Notes under the pieces: model-generated
What the model was told of the DNA's origin: nothing
The model's input: only the letters and a program-made list of their open reading frames with translations
Database searches by the model: none
Made by a program: the position numbers and the translations under genes
Shown here: piece after piece, positions 22,527-32,607 of the stretch
Position numbering within the stretch: position 1 is the first letter of the stretch
How the letters are laid out: each line of letters begins with the position of its first letter
NCBI RefSeq assembly: GCF_000744835.1
Contig: NZ_JQMS01000001.1
Span: 2,604,001-2,668,000, forward strand
Length of the DNA: 64,000 bases
Source: Flavobacterium sp. 83
GTDB taxonomy: Bacteria; Bacteroidota; Bacteroidia; Flavobacteriales; Flavobacteriaceae
Reading direction: 5' to 3'

Positions 22527-23744
22527 ATGAGTATAAAGATTTTACATACCGCCGATTGGCATATTGGAAAGCAGTTACTGAAAATTGATTTTTTAGAGGA
22601 CATGAATCTTTTTTTGCACTGGTTAATCAAATGTATTGAAGAGAATGAAATAAATGTGTTATTGATGTCAGGAGATTTGTTCGATCAGGCAAATCCATCA
22701 CAGCTGGCAATGAAGCAGTATTATTATTTTTTAAAGCAATTACTACCCTTGAAATGTAAGGTTATTTTAACTGGAGGAAATCACGATTCTCCCCATGTTA
22801 TCAATGCCCCAAAAGAACTTTTGGAAATCCTGGACATTACTGTTGTAGGTGGTGTTCCTGAGGCTGTTTCTGAATTGTTTGTCGAAATTGAAGTAGATAA
22901 CCAAAAAGTAGTTGTTGCCGCTGTTCCTTTTTTAAGGGATAAAGACATTCGGAATGTAGTTCCTGGAGAATCGTATGATGATAAAATTGAACTCATTAGA
23001 CACGGAATTAACACTTATTTTAGCGGAGTAAATGAGTATTACAAAGCCAATCACAATGGTGTTCCGTTTATCGTTATGGCACATTTATATGCTCAGGGTG
23101 CTTCTGTATCAGAAAGTGAACGCGAAATCCAAATTGGAAACCAGGCGGGTGTCGAATCTGCAATTTTTGGGGAAGAACCGCATTATGTTGCTTTAGGACA
23201 TATCCACAGACCGCAAATTGTCGGGAAATCGCATATCAGATACAGCGGTTCCCCAATTGCATTGAGTTTCAGTGAAAAAGAAGATCGTAAAGAAGTTGTT
23301 ATTTTAGAATTGGAAGGAAATGAATTCAATATATCATCTTTGCCAATCCCACAATTCAGAAAATTGATCTCCATAAAAGGAACAGTTGAAGAAGTAAAAA
23401 AAGTAATATCAAACTACAAATCAGAATCCTCGTTAATCGATTTGGCCGAAGTGCTGATTGAAGAGGAAAATGAGAATATTGAACACATCAGAATATTGGA
23501 AGAATTACTGACCACTGAGTCGGAAAACGGACTGCAGATTTTAAAAGGTAGTATTAAATTTAAGAATGAGCTTGCAGGGACTTCAAAATTACTGACAAAA
23601 GGAGAAGACGTCAGCGATTTTTCCCCACTGCAATTGTTTGAAAAGCGCTTGGAGCAGGATGCCTCGATAGAAAGCACTCAGGATTTTGTAAACGCTTTTA
23701 AGGAAATAATGGAGTCTATGCAATCTTCGGATTCAATCGATTAA
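22527..23744 (+). CDS. sbcD: Exonuclease subunit SbcD (Mre11-like nuclease)
   Basis: Metallophosphoesterase nuclease of 405 residues, the partner of SbcC. The metal-binding motifs are HTADWHIGK (6-14), SGDLFDQ (49-55), GGNHDS (85-90), MAHLYAQG and LGHIHRPQ. The complex opens hairpins and cleaves palindromes and protein-blocked ends. The gene starts 23 bases before sbcC, indicating an operon. SbcCD activity on palindromes may be relevant to the palindrome-rich gene downstream. Confidence 0.95.
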   Translation: MSIKILHTADWHIGKQLLKIDFLEDMNLFLHWLIKCIEENEINVLLMSGDLFDQANPSQLAMKQYYYFLKQLLPLKCKVILTGGNHDSPHVINAPKELLEILDITVVGGVPEAVSELFVEIEVDNQKVVVAAVPFLRDKDIRNVVPGESYDDKIELIRHGINTYFSGVNEYYKANHNGVPFIVMAHLYAQGASVSESEREIQIGNQAGVESAIFGEEPHYVALGHIHRPQIVGKSHIRYSGSPIALSFSEKEDRKEVVILELEGNEFNISSLPIPQFRKLISIKGTVEEVKKVISNYKSESSLIDLAEVLIEEENENIEHIRILEELLTTESENGLQILKGSIKFKNELAGTSKLLTKGEDVSDFSPLQLFEKRLEQDASIESTQDFVNAFKEIMESMQSSDSID

Positions 23745-23767
23745 TATCGTACCAATAAAACTTTCAT

Positions 23768-26700
23768 ATGAAAATTTGTAAAATAAAATTTAAAAATATA
23801 CATGCTCTGAAAGGGGAGCATACCATCGATTTTGAAAATGGTATCCTCGGAGAAGCAGGTCTTTTTGTAATTACGGGCGCAACGGGAACTGGTAAATCAA
23901 CCATTCTGGATGTGATAACCCTCGCTTTGTATAATAAAATTCCCAGAATAGAAAAATCAATCACTGAAAAAGTAATTGAGGAAGAAGGTGTTATCCTGAC
24001 TAAAAATGCCTTGGATTGTTATGCGGAAGTGGAATATGCGGTTAAAGGCAAAAGATATTTGTCTTCCTGGTCCATCCGCAGAACCAGAACGGGATCATTA
24101 GATAAGCGAAAACAAGAATTAATTGAAGTTACAACCGGTAAAATTTTAGTTTCAGGCGTAAACGAAGTGATTAGTGAAAACGAACGAATCATTGGTCTGA
24201 ATTACAATCAGTTTGTCCAATCGATGATTCTTGCCCAAGGTCAGTTTTCAAAATTGCTTTTGGCTAAAAAAGACGACCGAAATGCACTTTTAGAGGAAAT
24301 AACGGGTTCTTCCATTTATCGAAAGATAGGCAGGGCTGTATTTCAACGATTCAGGGGAGTGGAAGACGCAGTAAAGACCCAACAAATCAAAATGGGGGAA
24401 ACAGTCTTGTTGAGTGATGAATCTATGAAAGAGATTCAGGATGATATAGTCGAGAAAAAGCCATTGTGTATTGCTACCGAAAAAAAACAAAAGGAGCTCG
24501 AAAACAAAAAAGCACTGAAAGAAAGCATTCTTAAAAATATCCAGAAAAAAGAGGCAAACCAAATCGAATGGAAAGCTTTTTTGACTGATAAAAAAGAAGT
24601 AGCAATTCAGGAACAACAACTGGAAGTGCATGATAGTGTGGTGGTTTTCAAAGACCAAATGATCCAGATAGAACAGGCAGATAAAACGGCATTAGAACTT
24701 TCTGCCACAATAGAAAAAGGAAAACAACGTATCTTAGATTTTGAAGCTACTAAAAAGGAGTTGATTCAATCCGCCTCCGAATTGATAGCCAAAGAAGTAA
24801 CGGAAGATAAACTGGAGCTTTTACTGGAGGATTTCAGGGAAAAGGTAGTTTCTCTTCAGGAAGCTGAAAAGGAAAAATTAAATGAAGCTAAGCAGGAAGC
24901 ACAGCGTATTAAGGACAAATTACAGCAACTTAAAGCGTTTGGAATAACATTAATCGAAAACGAAAATCTAGCGCTGCAAATCAGACAGGAATTAAACACA
25001 ATTGAAGTTGAAATAAAACGTAAAGGGCTTTCGACCATTGATGCGGTTCGCACAAAAAAGGAAGAACTGTCAAAACTGGTTTTGCCTGCTAGCCAATTAA
25101 TTGGTGATCGGAAATTATATGATTTAAAAAGCGAGGGAATAGCAGAATTAAAAATTAAAATTAAAAGCCAGTTCAGTGAAATCAATAATTTCATTGAATC
25201 CGAAAAACTCCAAAAAGCAGAATTGGATAATCTGCTTCCAATAGTTGAAAAAGCAAAGGTGGAACTAGAAGACTGGAAGCAACGTAAAAGTCTTGATCAG
25301 CATCGTGCTGAGCTAGAACCCGGCAAGCCTTGTCCATTATGTGGCTCTGAAAACCATCCTTACGCAGAAAGTATCGAAGATATTTTGGTCAGCACATTGC
25401 AGGATAAATTGAATGAACTCACCAAAAAATCAGAAGAGTTAAAAACAATCCTATTGCAAACGGAAGCAAAAAAAGCAGGTTTGCAAACGACCAATTCTAA
25501 GGAGGAATTGGATTTAGAAATAAGGGCGGCAGATTTTAAGATTTTAGAAAATGATATCGCGGTATTGTGTTCCCAATTGAAGTGGAATAAGGAAGATCTG
25601 CTCGAAAAATGGGAATCCGAGTTTACTACTTTACAGCAAGAGCAAACCGAATTAGACAAATTAGGGAAGTGCATACAGGCCAAAGTAGTTTTGAACGAAA
25701 TGGAACAGTTAAATAGCAGCTACTCCGTTTTGAAAACGGCTTATATACTAGCTAAAGAAACGCTATTGTCGGTTTATAACAAAAATGACATCAATAACGC
25801 TGTTAGTGATTTGAATAGGAAATTTAGTGTATGTCGTTCGGAACTTAACGCACTGACGGCACAGCTTTCTGAATTTATAGCCAGTAGAACCAAAACGGTA
25901 GCTCTTAAAGAGCAGTTATTAGCCGTTCTTATCCCTGAACTTCAAAAAAAGGAGATTGATTCATTGTTAATATTGAAATCTAAAATACTCGAGGAATCCA
26001 ATGCGAGTCAAATTCGTAAAAAGTTACAAATGCTAAAGGACAACGAGATACGCCTGCAGACTAGTCTAAAAGCAATTGATGAAACCTTAGCCGAAGAAGA
26101 GCTATTAAATGATACTACGGTTACACTGGATGAACTAATAATATTACTGCCCGCAGTAATTAAAGAGTTTGCCATACTTCAAAAACACATTTGGGATCAG
26201 GAGAAACGAATCGAAATTGATACTCTAAACAGAGCGAAGCAAAAGAATAGCCAGGAAGCGTTGGATGCTTTGAATAAAGATTTGTCGCTTTGGAGTAAAA
26301 TGAATATGCTTATTGGTGATGCACAGGGGAAAAAATTCTCCAATTTCGTGCAGGACTTAACCTTGAGACAATTACTTGAATATGGAAACATACGTCTTAG
26401 AGGTTTTTCAGATCGTTATTTGCTGGATGTTACCAATGATTCCGATGGTTTGAAAGTTATTGATACGTATATGGGAAACACCAAGCGTTCCGTATCATCC
26501 TTGTCAGGGGGAGAAACTTTTAAATTAAGTTTGGCATTGGCTTTTGGATTATCAGATTTGGCCGCTCGTAATGTTGAAATTGAGTCCTTGTTTATTGATG
26601 AAGGTTTTGGTTCTTTAGATCCAGAATCCTTAGATCAGGCGATAAGCATACTCGAGAACATGCAAAACGAGAGTAATAAATCCATCGGTATAATATCACA

Positions 26701-26785
26701 TGTGGGCGAATTGAAAGACCGTATTGGTTCAAAAATAAAATTAGTTAGAACCGGTGCCGGATACAGTACAATTGAAATCGAATAG
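23768..26785 (+). CDS. sbcC: Exonuclease subunit SbcC (Rad50-like ATPase)
   Basis: A 1005-residue SMC-like ATPase. Walker A GATGTGKST (37-45) and Q-loop MILAQGQFSK occur in the N-terminal half-site, long coiled coils run about 190-520 and 530-850, and a zinc hook CPLC lies at about 521-524. The C-terminal half has the signature LSGGETF and Walker B LFIDEGFGSLD. It dimerises through the hook and works with SbcD on DNA ends and hairpins. Length is typical. Confidence 0.95.
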   Translation: MKICKIKFKNIHALKGEHTIDFENGILGEAGLFVITGATGTGKSTILDVITLALYNKIPRIEKSITEKVIEEEGVILTKNALDCYAEVEYAVKGKRYLSSWSIRRTRTGSLDKRKQELIEVTTGKILVSGVNEVISENERIIGLNYNQFVQSMILAQGQFSKLLLAKKDDRNALLEEITGSSIYRKIGRAVFQRFRGVEDAVKTQQIKMGETVLLSDESMKEIQDDIVEKKPLCIATEKKQKELENKKALKESILKNIQKKEANQIEWKAFLTDKKEVAIQEQQLEVHDSVVVFKDQMIQIEQADKTALELSATIEKGKQRILDFEATKKELIQSASELIAKEVTEDKLELLLEDFREKVVSLQEAEKEKLNEAKQEAQRIKDKLQQLKAFGITLIENENLALQIRQELNTIEVEIKRKGLSTIDAVRTKKEELSKLVLPASQLIGDRKLYDLKSEGIAELKIKIKSQFSEINNFIESEKLQKAELDNLLPIVEKAKVELEDWKQRKSLDQHRAELEPGKPCPLCGSENHPYAESIEDILVSTLQDKLNELTKKSEELKTILLQTEAKKAGLQTTNSKEELDLEIRAADFKILENDIAVLCSQLKWNKEDLLEKWESEFTTLQQEQTELDKLGKCIQAKVVLNEMEQLNSSYSVLKTAYILAKETLLSVYNKNDINNAVSDLNRKFSVCRSELNALTAQLSEFIASRTKTVALKEQLLAVLIPELQKKEIDSLLILKSKILEESNASQIRKKLQMLKDNEIRLQTSLKAIDETLAEEELLNDTTVTLDELIILLPAVIKEFAILQKHIWDQEKRIEIDTLNRAKQKNSQEALDALNKDLSLWSKMNMLIGDAQGKKFSNFVQDLTLRQLLEYGNIRLRGFSDRYLLDVTNDSDGLKVIDTYMGNTKRSVSSLSGGETFKLSLALAFGLSDLAARNVEIESLFIDEGFGSLDPESLDQAISILENMQNESNKSIGIISHVGELKDRIGSKIKLVRTGAGYSTIEIE

Positions 26786-26900: not shown

Positions 26901-29900
26901 ATGCCGTTATTTCAAAATTCAGTTGTTACAAAACAATTACAAAGTCAAGATAAAATCAAATTGGTTGCGCAATGGAATGTTTTCAAAGAACATTTTCACA
27001 ATCCAACTATTCAAGATAATATTCGTTCAAGTAAAGAAGAACAATACCAAGGCGAGTTCTTAATAGATTTGTTTGTAAATGTATTGGGATATACTAAAAA
27101 TCCAACCCCTAATTATAATTTAACAACAGAATACAAAAACGTTAAAGACAGTAAAAAGGCGGATGGGGCAATACTCATAAAAGACAAAGTTACAGCTGTA
27201 ATTGAGCTAAAAGGAACGAATACAACCGATTTAAATAAAATTGAAGTTCAGGCTTTTGGATATAAAAACAACCAACCTGATTGCGTTTATGTAATTACGG
27301 CAAACTTTGAAAAGTTACGTTTCTATATTGATAACGCCACCGAATATGTAGAGTTCAATCTTTTTAGTCTTACTCTAAAGGAATTTGAATTACTCTATTT
27401 GTGTTTGGCTTATGAGAACATTGCCAATGATATTCCCAAGAAACTCAAAGAACAATCTTTGAGCCAGGAAAAAGACATAACCAAAAAATTATATTCGGAT
27501 TATTCGCTATTTAAAAGAGAATTACACCAAGATTTAGTCAAACAAAATCCTGATTTTGACGCGTTGGAATTATTCCAAAAATCTCAAAAATTATTAGATC
27601 GTTTTTTGTTTATTTTCTTTGCCGAAGATAGAAATTTGCTGCCTACTAATTTGATTTTCAGAATCAACCAAGAATGGCGACAATTGCAGGAAATGCGCAT
27701 GAATATTTCGCTTTACGACCGCTACAAAATCTATTTTAATGATTTGAACCAAGGCGCAAAAGTTGTGTTGCCAGCTTTTTCTGAAACAAGGACGGCACAA
27801 AAAGAAGAGCATCAGATATTTGCCTACAATGGTGGATTGTTTCATCCGGATGCCATTTTAGACCACATCAAAATTGATGATGAATTGCTTTACAAACACA
27901 CGCAAAGATTAAGCAATTACGACTTTCAGAGTGAAGTTGACGTAAACATCTTGGGGCATATTTTTGAAAATTCATTGAATGAATTAGACGAAATAACAAA
28001 TGCAACAATGGGTTTAAACCCATTGGCAAGAGAGCAAACCAAACGAAAAAAAGACGGCGTTTTCTATACGCCCAAATACATTACCAAATATATTGTTGAC
28101 AATACGGTTGGTAAATTATGTATCGACAAAAAAGCCGAACTCAAAATCATTGAGGAAGACTATGTTAGCAACAATGGGCTTAAGCGCATTGCAAAGAAAA
28201 TCAAACAACCCTTATTAGAAAAACTAAACGCGTATAGAAATTGGTTGTTGCAAATTACGATTTGCGACCCGGCTTGTGGCAGTGGCGCATTTTTGAACCA
28301 AGCTTTAGAATTTTTGATTGCAGAACACGGATATATTGACGAACTCCAAGCCAAATTATTTGGCGATGCAATGGTTTTGAGCGATGTAGAAAAAAGCATT
28401 CTCGAAAACAACCTTTTTGGAGTAGATTTGAATGAAGAAAGTGTGGAAATCGCCAAACTCTCCTTATGGCTACGCACCGCACAACCCAATAGAAAATTAA
28501 ACGACTTAAACAGCAATATTAAATGCGGCAACTCATTGATTGACGATGAAACCATTGCTGGTGACAAAGCTTTTAACTGGCAGACCGCATTTCCTAAAAT
28601 ATTCACAGAAAAGCAAAAAAAGCCTTGGCACATCACAACAGCTATTCACGATAGTCGCACTTCTCAAAGAATGATAGATTATAAAGTGAGAGAAAAAAGA
28701 GCAATGGGAACAATGCCCGAACCACAAATAAATTATCTTACGGATAATGACGAAATGGTAATTGCAGAAACCGTTTCAATTTTAGTAAATGAACAACATC
28801 TAAATATTTTGGCATTTAATATTTGCAAAGACCATATTCATATCGTTTTGGTTTGCGAAGAGGAAGAAGTAAATGAAATAGTAAGAAAAATAAAAGGACG
28901 AACAGCCCGCGAGGTCAATAAAAATAACGGAATAAATCCTATAATCGACAAAGATTACAATAATGGGTTTAAACCCATTGTCGAAAGCACTGGAGAAAAA
29001 AGCATTCCGTTGTGGACACAAAAATTTGGATGTAAAGAAATAGTTGATGAAAACCAATTGACTAATACAATTAATTACATAAAAACAAACAGAGCAAAAC
29101 ACAATTTGCCCGACAATAGCAACAAGGGGTTTAAATCCCTTGTCGATAGTATATCTTGTACTTACGAACACGCTTTTAGAGAAGAATATAAAGGAGGTTT
29201 TGATGTGATTATTGGAAATCCGCCTTATGTAAATAGTAAAGAAGAAATGTTTACTAAAGAGGTAAAGGAATTCTTTATACAGAATTATAAAACTTCAGCA
29301 TACCAAATTGACTTATACATTTTATTTCTTGAAAAAAGTTTGAAACTAATTTCTAATATAGGGACGTCATCTTTAATTGTTCCTAATTCGTGGTTAAACA
29401 ATTTATTTTTAGAAAATGTCAGGAAATTCTTTTTGACTAATTCACAAATTATTGAAATTGTTTCAATGCCATCTAATACTTTTTTAGATGCTAATGTTGA
29501 TACAATAATTGTAACATTTGAAAATTCAAAAGATAAATTGACCAAGCTAACAAAATGTACTAATGAACAATTTGATGTTACTGGGGAGATTAATCAAATG
29601 GATTGGTTTAAAGAAAAAGGTGCGTATATAAACGTTCATATTACTAAAAATATTAATGAGATATTTAAGAAATTAAATCATAATTCAATATCATTAGAAG
29701 CTTTAGCGGATATTGGCAGAGGTGTTGGGGTTTATCATAAGCGAGTTGGACATACAAAGGAATTTATTGAAAAAGATCCTTTTCAATCTGATAAAAAAGA
29801 CGATGCTACTTTTTTGCCATATTTAAGAGGTAGAAATGTTCAATCAGGATATTTGAATTGGAACAATGATAGTTATATAAGTTATGGAAGATGGTTAGCA

Positions 29901-30605
29901 GAACCGAGAGATCCTAAATTTTTCACAGGACAAAGAATAGTTTTGAGACAAATTCCATCTAAAAAGCTGATTGTCGCTTATTTGGATCAAGATTTTGTAA
30001 TTGACCAATCAGTATTTATTGCAAGATTTTATGATAATTCAAAATTTAATTCTAAATCTATAATGTCAATTTTAGGCTCAAAATTGATGGCTTTTTATTT
30101 CAAATTTAACTATTCAGAATTTGATGACTTGTTTCCTAAAGTTAAATTACAGCATTTTAAATCTTTTCCTATTTCAGAAAAATTAATTGATATTGATATA
30201 AAGTTAGGAAGTTTGAGTAATGAAATAATAGAATTTAAAAATCAACAACAAGAACAATCGCAAAAGTTTCAAAGAACGATACAACGAAAGTTTTTTAGTA
30301 CTACTGATGACAAGGGGTTTAAACCCCTTGTTGATAGTGATAGTAATAGTAATAGCGTTCTTCCAAAAAAACTACAAGATTGGTATTTGTTGTCGTATGC
30401 TGATTTCATCAAAGAACTGGCAAAAAAGAAAATAAAACTAGCCCTTTCGCAGGAAGCCGAGTGGGAAGAGTATTTCACTACCGAAGCCAAAAAAGTACTG
30501 GAAATCAAAACCCAAATCTACACCACCGATAAAGCTATTGATGCAATGATTTATGAATTGTATGGGTTGAGTAGTGAGGAAATAGAGATTGTAGAAAATA
30601 GTTAG
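26901..30605 (+). CDS. Type IIG-like restriction-modification protein with a RAYT-like HUH transposase domain inserted in its methyltransferase
   Basis: A 1234-residue single-chain restriction-modification protein. An N-terminal PD-(D/E)XK nuclease pattern is visible (Asp88, Glu102, Lys104 in ADGAI...AVIELKG). FYTPKYITKYIV and the AdoMet motif DPACGSGAF (Asp456) begin the N6-adenine methyltransferase; catalytic NPPY is at 773-776. The gap between these motifs is about 317 residues. Roughly 570-766 looks like an IS200/REP tyrosine transposase: FNICKDHIHIVLV with HIH (645-647), then WTQKFG and NTINYIKTNRAKHN with candidate Tyr726. After NPPY come a TaqI/Eco57I-like target-recognition region and a C-terminal coiled tail. 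Four REP-like palindromes are translated in frame. Whether the HUH part is active is unknown. Confidence 0.8.
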   Translation: MPLFQNSVVTKQLQSQDKIKLVAQWNVFKEHFHNPTIQDNIRSSKEEQYQGEFLIDLFVNVLGYTKNPTPNYNLTTEYKNVKDSKKADGAILIKDKVTAVIELKGTNTTDLNKIEVQAFGYKNNQPDCVYVITANFEKLRFYIDNATEYVEFNLFSLTLKEFELLYLCLAYENIANDIPKKLKEQSLSQEKDITKKLYSDYSLFKRELHQDLVKQNPDFDALELFQKSQKLLDRFLFIFFAEDRNLLPTNLIFRINQEWRQLQEMRMNISLYDRYKIYFNDLNQGAKVVLPAFSETRTAQKEEHQIFAYNGGLFHPDAILDHIKIDDELLYKHTQRLSNYDFQSEVDVNILGHIFENSLNELDEITNATMGLNPLAREQTKRKKDGVFYTPKYITKYIVDNTVGKLCIDKKAELKIIEEDYVSNNGLKRIAKKIKQPLLEKLNAYRNWLLQITICDPACGSGAFLNQALEFLIAEHGYIDELQAKLFGDAMVLSDVEKSILENNLFGVDLNEESVEIAKLSLWLRTAQPNRKLNDLNSNIKCGNSLIDDETIAGDKAFNWQTAFPKIFTEKQKKPWHITTAIHDSRTSQRMIDYKVREKRAMGTMPEPQINYLTDNDEMVIAETVSILVNEQHLNILAFNICKDHIHIVLVCEEEEVNEIVRKIKGRTAREVNKNNGINPIIDKDYNNGFKPIVESTGEKSIPLWTQKFGCKEIVDENQLTNTINYIKTNRAKHNLPDNSNKGFKSLVDSISCTYEHAFREEYKGGFDVIIGNPPYVNSKEEMFTKEVKEFFIQNYKTSAYQIDLYILFLEKSLKLISNIGTSSLIVPNSWLNNLFLENVRKFFLTNSQIIEIVSMPSNTFLDANVDTIIVTFENSKDKLTKLTKCTNEQFDVTGEINQMDWFKEKGAYINVHITKNINEIFKKLNHNSISLEALADIGRGVGVYHKRVGHTKEFIEKDPFQSDKKDDATFLPYLRGRNVQSGYLNWNNDSYISYGRWLAEPRDPKFFTGQRIVLRQIPSKKLIVAYLDQDFVIDQSVFIARFYDNSKFNSKSIMSILGSKLMAFYFKFNYSEFDDLFPKVKLQHFKSFPISEKLIDIDIKLGSLSNEIIEFKNQQQEQSQKFQRTIQRKFFSTTDDKGFKPLVDSDSNSNSVLPKKLQDWYLLSYADFIKELAKKKIKLALSQEAEWEEYFTTEAKKVLEIKTQIYTTDKAIDAMIYELYGLSSEEIEIVENS
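28006..28025. repeat. REP-like palindrome, copy 1 (inside the restriction-modification gene)
   Basis: Perfect 20-base palindrome CAATGGGTTTAAACCCATTG. Here it is read as TMGLNPLA, a different frame from the other three copies, in the linker before the methyltransferase domain. Confidence 0.9.
28962..28979. repeat. REP-like palindrome, copy 2 (inside the transposase-like insert)
   Basis: Perfect 18-base palindrome AATGGGTTTAAACCCATT followed by GTCGA. Translated as NGFKPIVE between the HIH motif and the WTQKFG segment. Confidence 0.9.
29123..29142. repeat. REP-like palindrome, copy 3 (after the tyrosine helix)
   Basis: CAAGGGGTTTAAATCCCTTG, palindromic with one G-T wobble, followed by TCGATAGT. 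Translated as NKGFKSLVDS, just before the sequence returns to methyltransferase. Confidence 0.88.
30311..30330. repeat. REP-like palindrome, copy 4 (C-terminal linker)
   Basis: Perfect palindrome CAAGGGGTTTAAACCCCTTG followed by TTGATAGT. Translated as DKGFKPLVDS in a low-complexity linker before KKLQDWYLL. Confidence 0.9.
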
Positions 30606-30607
30606 TT

Positions 30608-31234
30608 ATGGCAACCGATTTATACCTTATTAGCAATATTGAAACTAGGAAAGAAGATGTTCTTGATAACAAAGATATCTATCTTCAAAAACTTAAAGAG
30701 TTAAAATTAGAGCATACAAGTAATTTTAGAGATGGGAAATATAAACAATGTGAAGGCGATTGGGAATATGAATTTCCATACACTTATGACGAGGTTTTAG
30801 ATACAATTATTTCTGATGAAGACACCACAGAACTTATATATTATTCCAGTCCTTTTGTTTTTAGTATAAGAGTATATGAAAACTGTTTAGAATTAACTAC
30901 AATTTATAAATATCGTTATTTATATGAAGATGAATACAAGCAGTTGGATATAGCAAAAGAAAATTTGCTTGAATTTAGAAGAAATATATTTGATATTATA
31001 TCCATTTTTGGCGGAACAGAAATAATTTATTTAGCTGATAATGCTTGTGATAAAATAGCAACATATTTAGAATGTTGGGCTTGGGAAGGCAAATCCTATG
31101 ACGAAATAAAGCAAGATATGATTGCTAAAAACTTACCCTTTAGAAGCGATTATGAAAATTTAAAGTTAAACGATTTAAGTTATAGAAATATTACAGAAAT
31201 TATTTTTGACGACTTTAAGGATTTTAAAGTTTAA
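30608..31234 (+). CDS. Unrecognised 208-residue protein downstream of the restriction-modification gene
   Basis: The start is two bases after the restriction gene stop, so it is surely co-transcribed. The product is acidic, with many Tyr, Glu and Asp residues, no signal peptide and no TM helix. Segments such as YYSSPFVFSIRVYENCLELTTIYKY and GGTEIIYLADNACDKIATYLECWAWEGKSYDEI (in parts) suggest an alpha/beta globular protein. I do not recognise a family. Its place in the island suggests an accessory, perhaps defence or antitoxin-like role, but that is inference only. Confidence 0.75.
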   Translation: MATDLYLISNIETRKEDVLDNKDIYLQKLKELKLEHTSNFRDGKYKQCEGDWEYEFPYTYDEVLDTIISDEDTTELIYYSSPFVFSIRVYENCLELTTIYKYRYLYEDEYKQLDIAKENLLEFRRNIFDIISIFGGTEIIYLADNACDKIATYLECWAWEGKSYDEIKQDMIAKNLPFRSDYENLKLNDLSYRNITEIIFDDFKDFKV

Positions 31235-31323: not shown

Positions 31324-32607
31324 ATGGCAAAAGAATACATATATCATAACTTTATTTGGAAAGGCATATTTAGCAATATAAATACTAATAGAATTTATCC
31401 TCGATTTAAAAAAGGAGAACAATTTACAATCGGTTTCAATAGTATTACTCATAGTTGTGTTGGATTACCTAATTACACGATCAAAAATTCTGAAACTAAA
31501 TTTTATTTATCCATTAAGGACACTGGAGAAGCTTTTGAGTTTATTAGTAATTGGATTGCAACCAAAATGAAAGGAGCTTTTTTGGAAACTATATTCGATG
31601 AAATTGTAAATCAAAACAAAATAGAAAATGAGTATGTAAACTGGAGAGGTTTTTTATTTGATTACTTACTAAAAATAAAAGAAAGAGCAACCGATTTAAA
31701 ACTTTTAAAATCTTCCGAAGATAAAATTGAATTGAGTTTTAAAGTTCATCTTAGTCAATTACAAGAAACCTTTGAACCAATTGAATTTTTTGACCCCCTT
31801 TTTATACTTGAGTTAGGAGGCAAAAGCCCAAAAGAAGTCTATAAAATTGGTTTAGATTTTTTAGATATTGATAATAAAAAGTGTATTGGTATTCTTAAAA
31901 CAATAGTAGAAGAAATGCCGTTTGTTGGCTTAATTATTGGGATTGCCTATTTCTATGAAGGCAAAAGTGAACTTTCAAACAATTATATTAAAGATGCGTT
32001 AAGTAAAATTGACAGTATTGATTTTTCAGATGATTTTACGGGGTTAATAGCAGAAATTATTGCCACGAATGAATATAATTTAGGTACTGTAAACGATAGA
32101 ACCATAAGAATGTTTTTTGCTGTATTAGATATAAATCAAAGCCCTACGGCATTAATAAAATTGTCTTATATAATTTTGAGTAAAAACATCAAACATTTAA
32201 AAGAATTTGCATTAGAAAATGTAGCAATTGCAATAGAATATAATTTGAATGATGAAAACGAATCAACTAAAATTTCGGCATTTCATATAATATGTTCTGT
32301 TTTGTTATGGAATGATAAATTTGATGAAGCTGAAAAATATCATCCTTATTTTTTGAATGAGAATAACGATTTTATTAAATATCATTTCGAACACGTTGAG
32401 GGATATATAACATTAGCCCTTGCAAAAGATAATCATAACTTCATTTCAAATTTAATTTTAGATTTTCCACATTTAAGAAATAGAGCTTCGGGATTGTTTA
32501 ACGCTTGGAATTTTGAAAATTTAGAATTGAAAAATAAAGTTTGGGGAAATCTAAATAGTTACAACTATACTAAAATTAACAACGCTAAAAAGATGTATTG
32601 TGATTAA
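31324..32607 (+). CDS. Unrecognised 427-residue protein with helical-repeat look
   Basis: Starts with the base after the tail remnant's stop codon. The N-terminal third is mixed; the C-terminal half (about 170-420) is alpha-helical, with helix pairs such as FVGLIIGIAYFYEGKSELSNNYIKDAL and SAFHIICSVLLWNDKFDEAEKYHPYF (in parts) that resemble TPR-like repeats. No signal peptide or TM helix. No known enzyme motif. Adjacent to a restriction system, it may be an accessory protein, but no function can be given. Confidence 0.75.
   Translation: MAKEYIYHNFIWKGIFSNINTNRIYPRFKKGEQFTIGFNSITHSCVGLPNYTIKNSETKFYLSIKDTGEAFEFISNWIATKMKGAFLETIFDEIVNQNKIENEYVNWRGFLFDYLLKIKERATDLKLLKSSEDKIELSFKVHLSQLQETFEPIEFFDPLFILELGGKSPKEVYKIGLDFLDIDNKKCIGILKTIVEEMPFVGLIIGIAYFYEGKSELSNNYIKDALSKIDSIDFSDDFTGLIAEIIATNEYNLGTVNDRTIRMFFAVLDINQSPTALIKLSYIILSKNIKHLKEFALENVAIAIEYNLNDENESTKISAFHIICSVLLWNDKFDEAEKYHPYFLNENNDFIKYHFEHVEGYITLALAKDNHNFISNLILDFPHLRNRASGLFNAWNFENLELKNKVWGNLNSYNYTKINNAKKMYCD

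Follow-up and report, generated by a model that had tools for sequence, protein, structure and literature searches.

Repetitive extragenic palindromic (REP) sequences are usually described as repeats outside genes, with their transposases encoded by separate, free-standing genes. Here we analyze a 64,000-nucleotide stretch of Flavobacterium sp. 83 (contig NZ_JQMS01000001.1, positions 2,604,001 to 2,668,000, referred to hereafter as the window), in which a single open reading frame (ORF) encodes a type IIG restriction-modification (R-M) enzyme with a Y1/HUH domain nested in its methyltransferase, and in which copies of one short palindrome are read in frame within the same gene.

Subclass 2.4 of the free-standing TnpAREP proteins (also termed REP-associated tyrosine transposases, RAYTs), as described by Quentin et al (2018; PMC6006769), has the HUH/Y1 core in common with the nested domain and hosts that include Bacteroidetes, as here; the palindrome lying between the HUH and Tyr motifs of our gene (site C below) is the point of comparison. 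Subclass 2.4 proteins are free-standing, with NH[IFV]H and YIxNNP motifs and a GT[AG]G foot, whereas the domain described here sits inside an R-M enzyme, carries DH[IMLVF]H and Y-I-x-x-N-[RK]-x-K-H, and is accompanied by footless palindromes through the host gene. In-frame REPs within free-standing tnpAREP genes have already been published. For the E. coli TnpAREP–REP system (4er8), PMC8266576 describes REPs with a GTAG foot, cleaved at CT, and a protein that is a transposase alone. The IS200/IS605 TnpA proteins of IS608 and ISDra2 have the closest folds to our predicted model by Z (12.4 and 11.8); their Y---Q motif (PMC6006769) differs from the nested domain, which has Asn, like TnpAREP. Short palindromes read in frame within proteins have also been described, as intragenic REPs and as Rickettsia palindromic elements (PMC3733652); those are spread over various genes, whereas ours are concentrated in the gene of the presumed mobilizing enzyme. 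Finally, type IIG enzymes (PDLC03609) have the same backbone, with motifs I and IV and a TaqI-like recognition domain, to which the nested gene adds a ~194-residue cassette before motif IV. Our searches of the open-licence PMC literature brought up no account of an R-M enzyme that contains a nested RAYT/Y1 domain, or of a palindrome spread through the gene of such an enzyme and into other R-M genes.

A single-tyrosine HUH domain between methyltransferase motifs I and IV

The type IIG assignment is consistent with the presence of N6-adenine methyltransferase motifs I and IV, a TaqI-type predicted fold and a recognition domain; the best stretch of the PADLOC type IIG model PDLC03609 covers residues 1–569 of the 1234-residue protein. 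In the Pfam matches, methyltransferase parts (MmeI_Mtase/N6_Mtase/Eco57I) flank a Y1_Tnp domain on both sides. Y1_Tnp (PF01797) itself matches residues 611–676 with 36.2 bits (cut-off 23, E 7.4e-9), and NCBIfam REP_Tyr_transpos matches residues 620–738 (E 4.3e-11, 42.9 bits); NCBIfam transpos_IS200 reaches 31.3 bits, below its cut-off of 55. Toward the N terminus, D88...E102-L-K104, spotted by eye, resembles what we take to be a PD-(D/E)XK nuclease motif; the Pfam matches of the whole protein include no nuclease family.

Within the translated ORF, DHIHIV starts at residue 644 (H645, H647) and YIKTNRAKHNL at 726, with DPACGSG (from 456) and NPPY (from 773) on either side. Both His, Tyr726, Asn730, Lys733, His734, Trp705, Gln707 and Lys708 are invariant in 117/117 nested proteins. 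The motif around the tyrosine departs from both described patterns: after Y726/N730 comes Arg in 99% of these proteins, not the Pro of the class 2 Y---NP motif, and Asn replaces the Gln of the IS200/IS605 Y---Q motif in every one. In a model of the HUH domain alone (mef7a8d6f843f), both His are predicted to lie on a single strand (71–76) and Tyr726 on the expected helix (143–159); the nearest folds are IS608 TnpA and then TnpAREP, VIA-align being the sole method of structural comparison for this model. When solved structures were searched by sequence, the matches were weak only, and most were to IS200-type transposases (best E 0.22). The methyltransferase fold is otherwise intact in the prediction, with the insert between motifs I and IV, and the domain is under purifying selection (low dN/dS). 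The predicted fold and the residues place the nested domain in the RAYT/TnpAREP–IS200 superfamily, as a single-tyrosine HUH enzyme that looks catalytically intact.

Homologues separate into two classes by the distance between motif I and NPPY. A search with residues 440–800 yielded 8000 scored candidates, of which the best 120 were used; nearly all of those 120 are tagged PF01797 (P0053 is an exception), and a search with the domain-less homologue L013 returned mostly domain-less relatives. Among 234 proteins from both searches, 18 of which were left unclassed, HxH is present in 117/117 with long spacing (298–511 residues) and in 0/99 with short spacing (123–130 residues). Alignment with L013, L014, L015 and L017 defines a clean cassette of ~194 residues between PKIF and KGGFDVIIGNPPY. 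An ordinary methyltransferase loop is ruled out by the 99 insert-free homologues, and the wider suggestion that the arrangement reflects chance, an assembly error or such a loop has a negligible probability, being refuted by the single-contig genome, the 117 homologues, the fold match and the absence of palindrome matches in shuffled sequence (below).

A sequence-only reading of this ORF had already placed a RAYT/IS200-like transposase domain inside the methyltransferase, and this interpretation is supported. The residues that it named (DPACGSGAF at 456, HIH at 645–647, Tyr726, NPPY at 773) and its coordinates are correct in the translation; the Y1_Tnp and REP-transposase profiles match the insert; the HUH fold for which it had called is what prediction returns, with the His pair on one strand, Tyr726 on the expected helix and IS608 TnpA then TnpAREP as neighbors; the insert does separate motif I from motif IV in a methyltransferase whose predicted fold is otherwise intact; and the comparison of homologues that it had proposed gives clean presence or absence of the insert. 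Its option of a merely tolerated insertion fits poorly with the invariant catalytic residues and the low dN/dS. Of its functional guesses, selection of REP DNA fits best, because palindromes are found at the gene.

In-frame palindromes accompany the nested domain

Those palindromes had gone unmentioned in the sequence-only reading. The gene contains five in-frame copies of a 20-bp palindrome, CAAKGG-N8-CCMTTG (sites A to E, Table 1), three of them exact (A, D, E) and two with one mismatch (B, C). Across the 3.79-Mb genome, which is a single contig, the 22-mer ACAANGGGTTTAAACCCNTTGT has four copies at 0–1 mismatch, all in the R-M gene; two more matches appear only at 3 mismatches, and the reversed control gives 0. 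No chance palindrome match arose in 100 shuffles of the window. A looser form, CAAKGGGN6CCCMTTG with one mismatch, has six sites in the genome, five in the gene and one elsewhere.

The association extends to relatives. A strict scan of 17 loci around nested genes (some closely related) gave 37 matches in 59,262 nt of gene, spread over 14 of the 17 genes, and 4 matches within 300 nt downstream of the gene at the remaining three, with none elsewhere; a putatively cognate palindrome thus lies in the gene at 14/17 loci and at most 300 nt downstream at 3/17. Four homologue loci lacking the domain (86 kb) had no match. L018, which also had none, was excluded from this plus/minus count because it holds only the first 332 residues of the homologue. 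When arm spacings of 4–12 were allowed and inner pairing was not required, all 41 matches had a spacing of 8 and 3–4 of 4 inner pairs, and the rest of the 17 loci (140,786 nt) contained none. The matches comprise 24 distinct 20-mers, with two-sided changes at pairs 4, 7 and 8. At one further locus (L041), the 3′ part of the gene contains an array of CAATGGAGCNGGCTCCATTG palindromes with direct repeats.

At the level of whole genomes, exact CAAKGGGN6CCCMTTG occurs in 5/8 genus genomes with the nested domain against 4/390 without it (398 genus genomes; Fisher p 8e-8). Of the 16 exact sites in the five genomes, the nested-HUH gene contains 13 and a Mu-like portal gene 1, and the remaining 2 fall in other R-M genes; the four domain-less genomes hold one each, and the reversed control over all 398 gives 2. 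The three nested genomes without the exact string (G344, G386, G446) have CAAKGGA variants in the gene. A peptide proxy for the palindrome, fixed after seeing the data and with a classing that accepts more motif IV variants (hence 112 proteins without the domain), is present in 107/117 proteins with the domain (60 outside the insert) and in 1/112 without. An earlier peptide expression gave 81/117 against 7/99, and all seven domain-less matches are NGISSLI, which is taken to be unrelated. Palindrome and nested domain are associated.

The two-sided changes preserve the stem, and together with the concentration of copies in the enzyme's own gene they would also suit cis-regulatory hairpins (in mRNA or single-stranded DNA) that the HUH domain binds, limiting expression of its own toxic R-M gene. 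Palindrome positions and numbers vary between relatives, and copies occur in other genes, both of which argue against such regulation, and we regard it as improbable.

The cassette is modular

Presence or absence of the domain changes at least 21 times on a backbone tree, 14 of these changes being forced by well-supported branches (114 thinned backbones in a quick tree made without the insert; 60 have the domain and 54 lack it). Among 84 proteins, distances in the N- and C-terminal parts of the backbone correlate (rho 0.73), whereas those of the HUH segment are nearly independent of the N-terminal part (rho 0.14 and 0.03) and of the recognition segments (0.07–0.17); the N-terminal part and the recognition domain are likewise nearly independent of each other (rho 0.10). 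The cassette appears to shuffle among R-M backbones, and ordinary homologous recombination within the conserved sequence on either side of it is the probable route. In a HUH tree of 45 nested and 24 labeled free-standing domains, nested domains fall mostly into one group; nested P0095 lies among the free-standing domains and four rows labeled free-standing lie among the nested ones, so that at least two changes between the states are forced, although some of the four may be fragments.

The nested domain is found in 8/398 genus genomes, 5/299 of a family sample and 5/345 of a phylum sample, each count including the window's own genome; a sixth family match, a 214-residue frame of 19% identity, was left out. 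A tblastn search with the nested domain gave no match in collections of phages (50,697 records) and plasmids (72,556 records). Free-standing relatives exist (32 of the 38 matches listed carry PF01797 alone). Some homologues carry the automatic annotation "type I restriction-modification system DNA methylase subunit/REP element-mobilizing transposase", and databases therefore already show that these domains occur together.

This modularity bears on a possible role of the palindromes and the HUH domain as drivers of recombination that exchanges the target recognition domain. Sites D and E flank the recognition cassette, the backbone, HUH and recognition segments evolve independently (the 84 proteins above), and at N-terminal identity of at least 95% the recognition domains are below 40% identity in 23/23 pairs with the domain, compared with 77% of 39 pairs without. 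Below 95%, scrambling of the recognition domains is equal whether or not the HUH domain is present (fractions 0.94–0.98 with it and 0.96–0.99 without; 60 proteins each), and the HUH domain is therefore not needed for swapping. A motor role is not supported, swapping being about equal without the domain in all but the closest pairs, and we consider it very improbable.

A working role in restriction deserves more weight, though we still judge it unlikely. Here the HUH domain would be a second single-strand or hairpin nuclease, or a DNA-binding arm, acting against phage or conjugating DNA, with the palindromes as passengers inherited from free-standing RAYT ancestors. Strict catalytic conservation, low dN/dS and the constant location of the domain, always between motifs I and IV in the 117 proteins, agree with this, and 25 of 32 free-standing relatives examined have a similar peptide by a looser motif, often between the HUH and Tyr motifs. 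Against it, palindromes are also present at a distance from that site, in the N-terminal part, before motif I, at the C terminus and in other R-M genes; and domain-less homologues are common and keep their other domains, so restriction should not need the HUH domain.

Copies outside the gene

Exact and one-mismatch sites were counted in 12 nested-HUH genomes from the genus and family. Of 25 exact sites, 20 lie in the gene. In one genome (G658) two other R-M genes, one MmeI-type and one type ISP, contain the same palindrome in frame; it is absent from the 12 MmeI-type loci compared (of 21 matches) and from 9/9 ISP loci, and the MmeI-type copy is a net 6-residue insertion. Two exact copies in G123 lie in no long ORF, and G598 has one in a Mu-like portal gene. 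Copies in other genes and genomic places imply that the palindrome can land elsewhere. Within the gene itself, the accompanying length change is a net +3 nt at site A, 0 to +9 at site B and +12 or more at site E; at A and B, the palindrome substitutes for host sequence with little net change of length.

A probable composite of R-M enzyme and REP/transposase system

The reading that we consider probable is of a composite gene, in which a type IIG R-M enzyme is combined with a REP/transposase (REPtron-like) system. In this composite, the nested domain would recognize CAAKGG-N8-CCMTTG as single-stranded hairpins, as RAYTs do, with single-stranded CAAGGGGTTTAAACCCCTTG hairpins as its presumed substrate; Tyr726 would nick and then transfer strands, occasionally copying or moving the palindrome. 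The palindrome would be tolerated in linkers in two of the three frames, which lack a stop when its center is TTTAAA or CTTAAG, and copies would for that reason pile up in the same ORF and now and then land elsewhere, including in other R-M genes. R-M genes move easily between genomes, and their loss can carry a cost. A mobile, possibly addictive R-M gene may thus carry the transposase–palindrome pair, its location keeping the two together despite a very low genomic copy number. A further step is put forward only tentatively: that this is a self-inscribing defence gene, whose HUH enzyme writes its own palindrome in frame into its own gene and in trans into other R-M genes, the R-M gene serving as the vehicle that takes a minimal transposase–palindrome replicator from genome to genome, and the replicator diversifying the linkers of the host enzyme.

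Several observations weigh against the composite. The nested domain scores 42.9 bits with REP_Tyr_transpos, below the cut-off of 80. The genomic copy number of the palindrome is tiny, and the many dispersed extragenic copies expected at a RAYT are not seen (four 22-mer copies in 3.79 Mb, all intragenic). Five of the 25 exact sites fall outside the gene (two in other R-M genes, one in the Mu-like portal gene, two in no long ORF), as do nine of 14 one-mismatch sites (one of the nine in the window's own genome), several of them non-palindromic, with three sites in the reversed control. The replacement of host sequence at several copies is something that simple transposition fails to explain, and no copy polymorphic between strains of one species turned up, no search having been aimed at such. 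The GT[AG]G foot of known REPs stands at 0–1 nt from 1/41 hairpins on either strand and within 8 nt of 3/41 (~4% expected by chance); with the foot absent, recognition would have to differ from that of known REPs. The three most distant loci (L052, L053, L054) have strict hairpins only just downstream of the gene, and 10/117 nested proteins lack the palindrome peptide. Conversely, the domain-less homologue P0205 has a palindrome-like peptide at site E, and two of the four sites in domain-less genomes (G486, G649) pair at all but the center.

The composite bears on how REP systems persist, since a single gene, itself shuffled and potentially addictive, here unites the transposase with its probable repeats. 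A further suggestion is that the segment separating the cofactor-binding from the catalytic motif of a DNA methyltransferase can accommodate an entire nuclease-like domain. Close homologues without domain and palindromes provide a natural plus/minus comparison, and the small substrates allow a direct test of whether the enzyme recognizes or mobilizes the palindrome.

Organization of the locus and same-genome relatives

Table 1. Features of the R-M gene (positions in the window)
Feature	Positions	Strand	Basis or remark
Type IIG restriction-modification gene with nested Y1/HUH domain	26901..30605	+	1234-residue ORF; Pfam; PADLOC REase_MTase_IIG E 1.2e-258
N-terminal part	26901..27900	+	D88...E102-L-K104, presumed PD-(D/E)XK-like, by eye
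In-frame palindrome site A (TMGLNPL)	28005..28026		exact CAAKGG-N8-CCMTTG
In-frame palindrome site B (NNGLKRI)	28172..28191		one mismatch
Methyltransferase motif I DPACGSGAF, residues 456–464	28266..28292	+	ORF translation, motif search
Nested Y1/HUH cassette, residues ~570–763	28608..29189	+	alignment with L013, L014, L015, L017; Pfam; model mef7a8d6f843f; VIA-align
HUH motif His645-Ile-His647	28833..28841	+	both His in 117/117; predicted strand 71–76
In-frame palindrome site C (NNGFKPIV), between HUH and Tyr motifs	28960..28981		first base of the 20-mer off consensus
Candidate catalytic Tyr726 in YIKTNRAKHNL	29076..29078	+	Tyr in 117/117; predicted helix 143–159
In-frame palindrome site D (NKGFKSLV), after Tyr helix	29122..29143		exact
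Methyltransferase motif IV NPPY, residues 773–776	29217..29228	+	ORF translation, motif search
TaqI-like target recognition domain, residues 973–1091	29817..30173	+	Pfam TaqI_C E 6.9e-20; Foldseek to M.TaqI, CamA, BrxX
In-frame perfect 22-bp palindrome site E (DKGFKPLV), after target recognition domain	30310..30331		exact

Directly upstream of the palindrome-bearing gene lie SbcD and SbcC (22527–26785), a pair that cuts hairpins and palindromes. We treat this association as coincidence: the other loci (at most 6 ORFs each, longer than 200 residues) show no ORF of ~1000 residues upstream, in a comparison of ORF length only. Two ORFs follow the R-M gene (30608–31234 and 31324–32607), the first starting 2 nt past its stop; neither has a match in Pfam or PADLOC.

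The same genome has two other loci of this kind with Y1_Tnp matches. The first (L002, in the region of G000:C1:2320587) is a free-standing RAYT-like gene with a perfect double-foot REP, GTAG...CTAC, nearby. Even with up to 3 mismatches allowed, the genome holds no second copy of this REP, so low copy number as a peculiarity of the nested system is not supported. The second (L003) is the third Y1_Tnp match in the genome and contains an in-frame TGA.

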